The notes beneath the pieces were generated by a model that saw only the letters and a list, made by a program, of their open reading frames with translations, ran no database searches and was not told the DNA's origin. From assembly GCF_003316765.1 (NCBI RefSeq), contig NZ_NIJF01000067.1, positions 1-64,000 of the forward strand: a DNA stretch of 64,000 nucleotides, in the 5' to 3' direction. Shown one piece after another: positions 43,567-48,308 of this stretch; the first letter of the stretch is position 1, and the number at the start of each line of letters is the position of its first letter. Made by a program: the position numbers and the translations under genes. Source of the stretch: Bacillus sp. P14.5. Its GTDB lineage: Bacteria; Bacillota; Bacilli; Bacillales; Bacillaceae_B.

Positions 43567-44991
43567 TCATTCAACAGTAGCTGCTGAAATCTCATCCAAT
43601 TGCAAAAAGAACTGGCAAATCAATGCTGTTTCACTTTCATTAACAGCCCTGAAATCCAGCAAAAATTCCTCATGCTGAATTCTGCCGATGATCGGGATAG
43701 CAGCCGTGCGGAAAGCTCTTTCTAATTGTGATGCGTCAAGAAATTTATGTTTGAGGGAAAGGACGTAAGTATCCAGTTCCACATCTGGCATTGTTCCTCC
43801 GCCTACCTGGCTTTTATCTCGTTTGACAATAGCAGAAAAATTGCTAGTCCTTTCTTCCAAAAAGGATTTTAGATCTTCTGCAATAAGTCTTAATTCCTCG
43901 GCATCAATTAAAAGTGACCTATAAGCAGGAATGTTGCTTTCGTTGCCTTTTAAGTAGTCAATCAGTGTTCCTTCCAATGCCGCAAGCGTCATTTTATCAA
44001 CACGAAGGACACGTGCCAGCTGATGTTTTTTCAAGATATCTATATACTCTTTTTTTCCGGCAATGATTCCCGCTTGCGGACCGCCAAGAAGTTTATCGCC
44101 GCTGAAGGAGACTATATCCGCTCCTTTGGTGATGACATCCTTTACTAATGGTTCCGATCCGATTCGGTGCTTCTTTAAATCATAAAGCATGCCGCTGCCT
44201 AAATCCTCATAAAAGATAACGTGCTCGTTGGTTGAAGAAAGCTGCACCAGTTCCTCTGTTTCTGTTTCTTCAGTAAATCCTTTTATAACAAAATTGCTTC
44301 TATGTACCTTCATCAGCATAGAAGTATTTTCGGTTATATTTTCAGCATAATCAGCTTGTCTAGTCTTGTTCGTTGTCCCAACTTCCACCAGTATTGCCCC
44401 ACTTTCCTCCATTATGGAAGAAACCCGGAAGGAACCGCCTATTTCAACAAGCTCCCCCCTAGATACGATTACTTCTTTTTCTTTTGCCATAGCAGATAAA
44501 ATCAGGAACACTGCTGCGGCATTATTATTCACAACCATTGCGGCTTCTGCGCCGGTTACTTCTTTAATAAGAGTTTCCGCATGAGTGTGCCGGGAACCTC
44601 TTGTCCCCCTACTGATATCGTACTCCAGATTGCTGTAGTTGCCTGCTATTTCGATGACATGCTGAGAGGCCGTGTCACTTAATCTGGCCCTTCCCAGATT
44701 CGTATGTAAAATCGTTCCGCTGGCATTAATGACCTTCTTTAAGGTATAAGCATATTTTTCCCCTGCAGTTTTTTCAGCTTTTTGAATTAAATAGGCATTT
44801 AGATCTGTACTGCCTGGCAGCGGCCCGTTCCAGGCTCCATTCAAGATTTTCTCCCTCATGCTTGCAACTTCTTCTTTTATAAGTTGTGTTCCCTGTTCTA
44901 TTGAAATATTGACGTCCCTAACCATTTTATCGAAAAGTATATCTTGTTGAATTTCATGGATAGAAGGGATTTTCCTTAGCAGTTCCTTCAT
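43567..44991 (-). CDS. selA: L-seryl-tRNA(Sec) selenium transferase (474 aa)
   Basis: A PLP enzyme that converts seryl-tRNA(Sec) to selenocysteinyl-tRNA(Sec) with selenophosphate. Family features: RKIPSIHEIQQDILFDKMVR at the N-terminus, VINASGTILHTNLGRARLS near residue 85, SNLEYDISRGTRGSRHTHAE, the aldehyde-lysine motif IVSFSGDKLLGGPQAGIIAG near residue 282, and DKMTLAALEGTLIDYLKG. The ATG at 44991 was chosen because GGGAGGA lies about six bases upstream; the ORF's longer N-terminus has no site. The length is normal. selB, which usually follows, is not next to it, and selD is not in the window. The nearby UGA-containing SelW-like gene is a plausible client. Confidence 0.95.
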   Translation of the reverse strand: MKELLRKIPSIHEIQQDILFDKMVRDVNISIEQGTQLIKEEVASMREKILNGAWNGPLPGSTDLNAYLIQKAEKTAGEKYAYTLKKVINASGTILHTNLGRARLSDTASQHVIEIAGNYSNLEYDISRGTRGSRHTHAETLIKEVTGAEAAMVVNNNAAAVFLILSAMAKEKEVIVSRGELVEIGGSFRVSSIMEESGAILVEVGTTNKTRQADYAENITENTSMLMKVHRSNFVIKGFTEETETEELVQLSSTNEHVIFYEDLGSGMLYDLKKHRIGSEPLVKDVITKGADIVSFSGDKLLGGPQAGIIAGKKEYIDILKKHQLARVLRVDKMTLAALEGTLIDYLKGNESNIPAYRSLLIDAEELRLIAEDLKSFLEERTSNFSAIVKRDKSQVGGGTMPDVELDTYVLSLKHKFLDASQLERAFRTAAIPIIGRIQHEEFLLDFRAVNESETALICQFFLQLDEISAATVE

Positions 44992-45229
44992 ATTCTTTCC
45001 TCCCGAATGAATCACTGAATAAATCACATTATACCACCCACACATCCTCACCTAAAGCGAATAGACTATTTAAAAGGAAAGCTGTATTCATAAGGGTTCT
45101 GACGCTTCAGACATGATTAATTTCCGGTTCCACCCAGGCTGTCCGGCCGATTGTAGCTGGATAAGGGGTTTATCATCTAGCAGCCAGCTGCCTTATTGAA
45201 TAGTGCTTTTAGGAAAGATGGAGGAAATC

Positions 45230-45622: not shown

Positions 45623-45655
45623 AAAAGGATCGGCCATTGCAGCCGATCCTTCTTT
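45623..45655. terminator. Bidirectional terminator
   Basis: AAGGATCGGC-CATTGCA-GCCGATCCTT, a 10-bp perfect stem. On plus it is followed by CTTTA. On minus it is followed by TTGGTGG, weak. It lies between the convergent Hsp20-like and SelW-like genes. Confidence 0.75.
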
Positions 45656-45896
45656 ACTTCTCGTTCTCGATTTGTTTAATTATTTCATCAGCATCAGGAA
45701 AGATGCCGGATTCAAGTTTAGAATAAAGTCTCTTTCCATTAACGGTCACTTCAAAAGCACCGCCTGAGGAAGGAATCAATTTCATTTCTTCCAAGTCTGA
45801 ACGAAAATGGCTAAAAAGTTCTTCCGCGAACCTCGCGGCTTTAGGTGCGTAGTTTCACTGCATGCAAAACTCAACGGATACTGCAATTGTGTTCAT
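45654..45896 (-). CDS. SelW/SelT/SelH (Rdx) family selenoprotein with in-frame UGA (80 aa)
   Basis: Start ATG at 45896 with AAGGAGG ten bases upstream. The frame reads MNTIAVSVEFCMQ, then TGA at 45855-45857 (codon 14), then NYAPKAARFAEELFSHFR, LIPSSGGAFEVTVNGKRLYS and a TAA at 45654. The C-M-Q-U arrangement is the CxxU redox motif of the Rdx family, a thioredoxin-like fold, and the downstream SSGG-FEV-NG pattern is its conserved core. The UGA is followed 16 bases later by a strong hairpin with a GGU loop (a SECIS candidate), and selA lies nearby. Read as selenocysteine, the protein has the full family length; as a stop, only a 13-aa peptide is made. A point mutation from TGC or TGT is the alternative. 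Confidence 0.85.
45824..45838 (-). promoter_or_regulatory. Bacterial SECIS-like hairpin inside the SelW-like gene
   Basis: On the coding strand CCGCGA-GGT-TCGCGG forms a perfect 6-bp, GC-rich stem with a three-base GGU loop, starting 17 bases after the UGA. In known bacterial SECIS elements SelB recognises a G (often GGU) in an apical loop about 16-37 bases after the UGA; here the loop lies 23 bases after it. The element is translated as part of AKAARFAE. Confidence 0.78.
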
Positions 45897-46065
45897 TTGG
45901 CATTATCCTCCTTTATTATTCATCATATTATTAATTGTAATATACGATAAAATATAGTGCAAATGACGGTAAGGCTATTTGCAGCTGTTGTTCATTTGCC
46001 TGGTGCCCGATCATCCTATTGATCCGGATTTACCCTGCTTGAAAGCACATCAGAGTCGAGAGCCA

Positions 46066-48308
46066 CTAATACAAGGTTTCCTCATAAGCTTTATAAAATT
46101 TACTTGAAAATACTCTTGGCCTGTATGAAAAGTCCTCATAGTCCATATTTCCTGAATGAAAACTTCCAAACCACAAAACTTTCTTATCAAGCCCGATAAA
46201 AGGATGATAGAAATCCCTGGGGTCATATTTGAAGCTTGTCAATGGAATTTTCCCCTTTTGTTTACATAATATTATTATAGTTAAATAACTTTCTCTTCTT
46301 TTAAGGACTTCCCATATTTCTAAGGAAACATCCTCTGCCTTCTCAAAGGACAACACAACTACATCCTTCGCAGCAGCAATATCTTTTTTCAGCTTTTCAT
46401 TCTCTTTTACACCGTACCACCGCAGTCTTTTGGTATGTGTTTGAGAAAAAACAATGGCTGTATCTCTTTTGTATTGTTTACTTTTTTCCTCTAAGTGGTG
46501 GATCAGCTTCCTGATCGGCTTATCCTCGCGAACATTTTTTTTAATATATCCATCGTCTCCGAGTAAAATAAATTTCCCCTTTGCCCTGGTAACCGAAACA
46601 TTGATAAGCCTGCCGCTTTCCATTTTGGTAAGAAGGGTCCCCGCTTTTTCTTGAGGATAGCTGTCAGTCAGATCAACTATCATCAAGTCCTTCTCAGAAC
46701 CTTGAAATTTATGAATGGTGGATGCAAATATGTCTGCAGAAACCGAAAGATCTCGCTGGTTAAAAAAGATAGGAAGAACCCTGTTCATCCATCTGGCCTG
46801 TGCTCGGTAAGGCGTTGCATAACCAATGGAATCTATTGCTGATTTATTGGCAGACAGCATCAGCTGTATCGCTGCCAGGCTGTTCATAAGGTTCCAGCGG
46901 GAGCCTCTGTCTGTATGACACCAGGGCAGATGATCAGTCATAGACATCAATACCGCTGCCTGTTTTGCAAAAGGGGAACGCTTGGCAATATGTGCCCGCT
47001 GATTGAGCGTTTCAGGATGGTCACTGACTAAAGAATGGTAAAATTGTTTATTTGTGAAAGCGGAAATATCAGGATGCATCCTTCTTTGAATCGGCAAGAG
47101 CATTAATTGAGGATGCTCGAGTCTTCTTTCCACCCAATCGGTTATTCCTGACAGGTGGAAGATATCCTGCTTCAGCCATTTCTCCACCAAGCCATGTCTG
47201 GATACAGCGATAGGCGGAAGCTGCTTAAAATCTCCGCAAATGATAACCCGTGTGCCAAGCGTAGCTGCATAGGCAATTTGCGGTGCATAAGCCATGCTGG
47301 CCTCATCAATAATGATCAGATCAAAATGGTTACTATAGATTACTGGATCGGTAGCTGCCTTAGATAAAGTCGTGGCTACCACCTGTGCCTCCTCTACAAA
47401 AATACTTTCCTTTTTCTTAGCTTTTCTCTGACTTTTGCCAGTCCAACCTCAATTTTTGTAAGATTAGCCGAGTCTTTTGCTGTAAAACTCTGCGAAAGTC
47501 TCTTTTTTAGTGTGAACCTTTTCTTTTCAAACTTACGTTTCCTTTCCCCTGTAATACTATCATCCAATTCTGCAAGCTTTGCGGCACTAAGTTCTGGATG
47601 GGTGTGGACTTCTTCTTTTTCAGGATGCCCATATCGGATCACTTCTCCCCCTGTCCATTTGTCTTTTTCCTGCAGAAATTCACACATTTCTAGAGTTAAA
47701 ACATCGATTGCAGCATTGCTGTGGGACAGTAAAAGGATTTTTTTGCCATTAACATATTGATAAGCTGCTGCTCGTGCAAGATTGTAGGTTTTGCCTGTTC
47801 CCGGGGGTCCCCAAATATAGGTCACCGGATTGTACTTTGATCTTAATACCGCCTCGTGAACAGTACTTTGTGCTTTTCCCTTGGGGTGATAGGTTATCTC
47901 AGATGGGGTCATGACGTTTTGTATTGTCTTCAGCTTAAGTGGATCTTCTTCGATCTCTTCAAGCCTCTCAATTAATTTATTGAGAAGGTCCCAAGGTTCG
48001 TTATGCAAAACCCCTTTACCAATTTCATCTCCTAGATCGATATCCAGTTCTGCTATGACATCTGTTCCCTCACAGGACAGTATATTTCCTTCTGCCTTCT
48101 TACCGTTATATTCAAATATCACAGCTCCCCCGGGAAACAGCTTTGCGGGATAAGCCATAACGAGCCAGTATACAGCCCCTCCTTCGGTGAAAGCTAAATG
48201 CTGGCCCTTGAGAACGAAAATCCCTCTGCCTTCGTATTCTTTCAACTTCTGGATTTCTGCAATCAGCGCTGTTCTCCACTGCTGTATCATTCTTCTGGTT
48301 GAGTCCAT
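46066..48308 (-). CDS. SF1 (Upf1/Dna2-like) DNA/RNA helicase, interrupted by a one-base frameshift
   Basis: The N-terminal piece (48308-47394) has Walker A in YIWGPPGTGKTYNLARAAAY and motif Ia in KKILLLSHSNAAIDV. The second piece (47382-46066) has motif II as DLIIIDEASMAYAPQIAYA, motif III GDFKQLPPIAVS, motif IV-V parts (QRRMHPDISAF, STIHKFQGSEKDLMIVDL) and motif VI ISVTRAKGKFILLGD as NVSVTRAKGKF. This is the AAA_11/AAA_12 pair of Upf1/Dna2-type helicases. The frame breaks at a five-T run (47411-47415). One extra A restores KLRKKESIFVEEAQVVATTL and gives 747 residues. A C-terminal PLD-like region is possible (residues after about 620). Monocistronic; start after AGGAG. Confidence 0.85.

Follow-up and report, generated by a model that had tools for sequence, protein, structure and literature searches.

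We found, on the minus strand of a 64,000-nucleotide stretch of DNA from Bacillus sp. P14.5 (hereafter, the window), a gene, rdx, that almost certainly encodes an Rdx/SelW-like selenoprotein in which an in-frame UGA is decoded by SelB and a hairpin, and in which Cys-11 and Sec-14 likely form a redox pair (Table 1). The UGA at codon 14 is very probably read as selenocysteine (Sec) through a downstream SECIS, as suggested jointly by the match to the Rdx family, the Sec genes of the genome, conservation of the TGA, co-occurrence of Rdx with selA, a co-evolving hairpin, and Cys-type relatives without an intact stem. We infer the following steps of Sec insertion, SelB binding, and redox activity. 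SelA, the product of the neighboring gene, would make Sec together with SelD and tRNA-Sec, and, with the ribosome positioned at UGA 14, SelB with Sec-tRNA(UCA) would bind the hairpin immediately downstream. The codon would then yield Sec instead of a stop, and Cys-11 and Sec-14 of the complete 80-residue protein would act as the redox pair.

Table 1. Features of the rdx-selA region (positions are those of the window)
Feature	Position	Strand	Evidence
rdx (SelW-like) selenoprotein gene, ATG to TAA, 80 residues	45654..45896	minus	translation; PF10262, 84.6 bits; TIGR02174, 70.6 bits
TGA codon 14 of rdx, very probably selenocysteine in C-M-Q-U	45855..45857	minus	translation; 30/30 congeneric genes
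Shine-Dalgarno-like AAAGGAGG, 10 nt ahead of the rdx ATG	45907..45914	minus	read from sequence
Hairpin of the bacterial SECIS type, CCGCG-AGGUU-CGCGG, separated from the TGA by 16 nt	45824..45838	minus	zero synonymous change; compensatory changes; centroid fold
Convergent ORF between rdx and selA, at most 137 aa	45203..45616	plus	tblastn: 84/139 loci, 30/30 congeneric
Terminator-like site, would end the convergent ORF	45625..45651	plus	1 found versus 0.6 expected from shuffles; weak
selA, L-seryl-tRNA(Sec) selenium transferase	43567..45051	minus	TIGR00474, 542 bits (cut-off, 267.9)

Gene structure and family membership

The first-pass annotation had described, with no strand named, an 80-codon frame with TGA at codon 14 and a terminal TAA, and this frame is indeed present on the minus strand. 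With TGA read as U, the product is MNTIAVSVEFCMQUNYAPKAARFAEELFSHFRSDLEEMKLIPSSGGAFEVTVNGKRLYSKLESGIFPDADEIIKQIENEK, followed by TAA. U14 is the final residue of C11-M-Q-U14, a CxxU motif near the N terminus as PF10262 expects, and its codon is the single internal stop of the frame. Under the standard bacterial code the frame ends at this codon, and standard annotation would truncate rdx there. The ribosome binding site that had been noted before the ATG was also located (Table 1), and promoter-like sites ahead of rdx were at chance level (2 found, 1.4 expected). Read on the plus strand, the interval contains two in-frame TGA codons, and that frame was rejected on this count.

Membership in the Rdx family, which had likewise been proposed, was borne out by profile searches of the product with Cys substituted for Sec: both PF10262 (cut-off, 22.6; E value, 5.6e-24; profile positions 2 to 74 of 74) and TIGR02174 (cut-off, 34.2) matched above their cut-offs. 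The assembly has an estimated contamination of 6.4%, although rdx and selA lie on one contig and orthologues of rdx occur in congeners.

Conservation of the UGA codon

Rdx was found in 30 of the 36 genomes of the genus, each with one TGA, and the TGA occupies the identical codon in all 30 genes; selA was present in the same 30 genomes, and G004, G011 to G014, and G022 carried neither. Rdx was present in 165 of the 397 genomes sampled from the order (tallied together as 150, 3 [G002, G009, and G020], and 12), and in every one of these genes a single in-frame TGA was the only internal stop. Homologues of the genus and order thus agree with the first-pass reading of the codon. Another 109 loci, in part from genomes of the genus set, all showed the C-x-x-U motif, and the residues behind the TGA are conserved. 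No Cys form of Rdx was seen among the 165 order genomes carrying the gene.

Matches to selA at an E value of 0.001 occurred in 280 of the 397 order genomes, 181 of them over the cut-off, and these 181 (E value, <1e-100) were used for comparison with Rdx. Both genes were present in 165 genomes, Rdx alone in 0, selA alone in 16, and neither in 216, so that Rdx was absent from all 216 genomes without selA over the cut-off; the Fisher P value for the Rdx/selA association ignores relatedness.

The class sample yielded 60 Rdx matches in 56 of 398 genomes (9 of the 56 from the order), with one TGA in 55 matches, two in 2, and none in 3. The three TGA-free genes encode CxxC proteins, one of them in a genome (G417) with an additional one-TGA copy, and Cys occupies the Sec position both in these Cys-type class genes and in the four best PDB relatives. 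The two genes with two TGA codons are second Rdx copies at the class level (L204, G574:C12:8288-8503; L205, G555:C30:823-1038), in which U-T-G-U (UxxU) replaces CxxU and the hairpin is intact behind the second TGA, and they are possible double-Sec Rdx proteins. A UxxU motif is published for a Prx-like family in a passage of PMC2398784.

Linkage of rdx and selA

All 30 congeners carry Rdx and selA on one strand, with Rdx upstream, and the two matches are separated by 552 to 959 bp. Positions of both genes were listed for 136 of the 165 order genomes: in 126, Rdx was upstream on the same strand at less than 1.5 kb, within 200 bp in 86 of these, and the other 10 comprised 3 with Rdx upstream by 1.7 to 5.5 kb, 3 with the genes on opposite strands 84 to 96 kb apart, and 4 with the genes on different contigs. 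In a hand-picked subset of 40 order genomes, Rdx and selA were adjacent in 33.

The convergent ORF between the two genes (Table 1) matched no family at an E value of 0.001 and gave only weak matches below cut-off at E values up to 1. No terminator-like site was called on the rdx strand between rdx and selA; the sole site, on the plus strand, was not above chance and was rejected as evidence of a terminator between the genes. Co-transcription of rdx and selA is doubtful in the genus because of the convergent ORF, although it may still occur, since the terminator-like site is weak and on the other strand.

The arrangement raises the idea that the UGA and hairpin act in addition as a selenium-sensing switch, in which low Sec would halt translation at codon 14 and lower the expression of downstream selA. 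Such a switch would fit the gene order in every congener, where Rdx precedes selA on one strand by <1 kb, and the short gaps in most of the 136 order genomes, whereas the convergent ORF in the genus and the 10 order genomes with distant, oppositely oriented, or separately located pairs argue against it, and we consider it distinctly unlikely. Rdx was always of the Sec type in the order genomes sampled, occurred in 165 of the 181 selA genomes, and usually stood beside selA. From this we tentatively suggest, as an improbable reading, that Rdx may be a principal reason why the order keeps the Sec machinery and that the UGA and SECIS may couple selenium supply to selA expression.

Elsewhere in the window, two adjacent minus-strand ORFs (46066 to 48308), 11 nt apart, match opposite ends of one IGHMBP2-like helicase, indicating a split or disrupted gene, and positions 488 to 687 of the minus strand match the D1-D4 domain of a Group II intron (110.8 bits).

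Selenocysteine machinery

In addition to selA, the genome contains selB on contig 9 (366 bits; cut-off, 242.25), a tRNA-Sec with anticodon TCA approximately 11 kb from selB on the same contig, and selD on contig 23 with its own in-frame TGA within GGUGCK; selA, selB, and selD all scored above their cut-offs. The tRNA-Sec model matched 12 places in the genome, of which 1 was above the gathering score, and ARAGORN labels that one SeC. Among 14 control genomes, selA was above the cut-off in 1, selB in 2, and selD in 2, and tRNA-Sec was above the gathering score in 5. Thus selB, selC, and selD, whose absence would have counted against a Sec reading, were all found.

The interval L051:1617-5407 holds selD and then a phnD-phnE-phnC-like ABC transporter, the binding protein of which matches the putative selenate-binding model TIGR04553 below its cut-off. 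A formate dehydrogenase (FDH) was considered as a third selenoprotein: locus L162 (G000:C118:33162-35153) is FDH-like with one TGA and scored 663.5 bits against a cut-off of 666.25. Its TGA lies off the active site and its N-terminal CxxCGMQCGM is in another frame, so we attributed the TGA to frame disruption, not Sec, and rejected the candidate. A second FDH-like match in the genome had no stop.

SECIS-type hairpin

The rdx hairpin has a stem of 5 bp and a loop, AGGUU, identical to that of the selD hairpin in the same genome; we presume that it also resembles the loop of Escherichia coli fdhF. Its folding energy was ordinary in comparison with shuffled sequences (z, -0.28 and -0.75), and conservation was therefore used as the evidence for a SECIS. 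The six hairpin codons, 20 to 25 (GCC GCG AGK TTC GCG GAA), showed no synonymous difference in the 30 congeneric genes, in which on average 0.50 of same-residue pairs differed at the 71 remaining codons for which synonyms exist.

Pairing was maintained over a far wider set of sequences. Across 139 loci (100 distinct 48-mers), 499 of 500 pair cells hold, with a maximum of 478 in shuffles. The full stem set of 159 loci comprised 30 from the genus, 109 further (some from genomes of the genus), and 20 from the class, and was reduced to 113 distinct Sec-type sequences by counting identical ones once; 12 + 6 order loci and the class matches without a locus stood outside this set, with the Cys-type genes reserved for control comparisons and the two UxxU genes considered separately. 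Pairing held in 564 of 565 cells of these 113 sequences, compared with maxima of 325 for slid partners and 506 for column shuffles, a control that ignores the relatedness of the sequences. Compensatory changes were present at three of the five stem pairs (C-G to U-A at two, and G-C to A-U, C-G, and U-A at the third), and three loci (L136, L137, and L151) kept the pairing despite two residue changes, A-A-S-F-A to A-V-S-F-T. The hairpin stands directly behind the UGA, and position 2 of its small apical loop carries G in every one of the 113 distinct sequences. Of the five pairs, the three Cys-type genes, for which no SECIS is needed, retain 0, 2 (including one T-G), and 3; since these genes are divergent and two keep some pairs, the control is suggestive.

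Hence the SECIS-like hairpin of the first-pass annotation was found, ordinary in energy and unusual in conservation, and the use of Sec, which had been deduced from the hairpin and selA, gains support from the conserved TGA, the compensatory stem changes, and selB, selC, and selD. The co-varying set is a clean resource for bacterial SECIS models.

The UGA might in principle be read as another amino acid, by suppression or a reassigned code. We found no point in favor of this, and the complete set of Sec genes in the genome, the lack of any Rdx in the 216 order genomes without selA, and a SECIS-type hairpin with a single unpaired cell across the 113 Sec-type sequences make it highly improbable. 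A pseudogene or sequencing error, in which the TGA would be a true stop and the protein would end at residue 13, accords with the stop that the standard code places at codon 14 but is scarcely credible, since no such error would be repeated across this many genomes (the same TGA in the 30 congeneric genes and exactly one in each of the 165 order genes) and the conserved residues behind the TGA speak strongly against it.

Predicted fold and function

With Sec at codon 14 as the preferred reading, the product is predicted to have a thioredoxin-like fold of the SelW type, on the basis of an AlphaFold model built from a 12-sequence alignment (mean pLDDT, 89.2; pTM, 0.78). The best Foldseek match was 2fa8, a putative SelW-related protein (E value, 1.1e-9; TM, 0.90); the best solved structural matches are bacterial SelW-related proteins, and mouse SelW (2npb) ranks 22. 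A passage of PMC1088965 calls the function of the SelW-like family unclear and reports an interaction with glutathione. Cys-11 and Sec-14 likely form a redox pair on the thioredoxin-like fold, and Rdx most likely serves a small set of partners, either as a thiol-dependent oxidoreductase or by carrying electrons. The host group consists of aerobic, easily grown bacteria, and the strict link between Sec-only Rdx and selA makes the role of bacterial SelW-like proteins testable in tractable Bacillaceae.

Comparison with known selenoproteins

SelW-like CxxU selenoproteins of bacteria were already in print by 2005 at the latest, judging from the passages cited here, and rdx adds a member to them. 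Bacterial SelW-like selenoproteins are described in sections of PMC1088965 and PMC1794560, and the family is listed under PF10262 with CxxU in parts of PMC9312934 and PMC13188914. In the relevant section of the 2005 report on the Sargasso Sea (PMC1088965), which cites earlier detection, SelW-like proteins were the most abundant family, with 48 genes, as they were in marine samples according to a passage of PMC2398784. The corresponding counts were 10 SelW-like selenoproteins in 2006 (PMC1794560) and 35 organisms in 2016 (PMC5029168), as given in excerpts of these papers. The Sec-only tendency was also noted in 2006: an excerpt of PMC1794560 names SelW-like proteins among the families for which Sec-using organisms have hardly any Cys homologues or none, and puts the number of selenoproteins in Bacillales at only 3. 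In a limited search of open PMC papers, we found neither the breadth of Rdx in the order (165/397) nor its adjacency to selA, no paper pairing Rossellomorea with selenocysteine, and none joining Bacillaceae, selenoprotein, selenocysteine, and UGA.

Among known proteins, mouse SelW is a remote relative of the rdx product (Foldseek E value, 7.7e-4; TM, 0.72), with a weak sequence match (E value, 0.015); in eukaryotes the SECIS sits in the 3' untranslated region, as stated in a passage of PMC1088965. The product scored 82.5 bits (E value, 1.9e-23) with NF041051 (SelTWH_Campy), below the cut-off of 88, and therefore falls outside that equivalog. The Cys-type bacterial Rdx structures 2fa8, 3dex, 2p0g, and 2obk share the fold (query-normalized TM, 0.83 to 0.92) and the position of the motif, but they have CxxC, with Cys in place of Sec, and so need no SECIS. 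The closest likeness is to the bacterial SelW-like selenoproteins (PF10262 Rdx, CxxU), which the rdx product resembles in family, length, motif, in-frame UGA, and a SECIS whose small apical loop contains a guanosine. Thus, it is the same in kind as these proteins, and it differs from them in its occurrence in Bacillaceae, its location beside selA, and the lack of a Cys form in the 165 order genomes.
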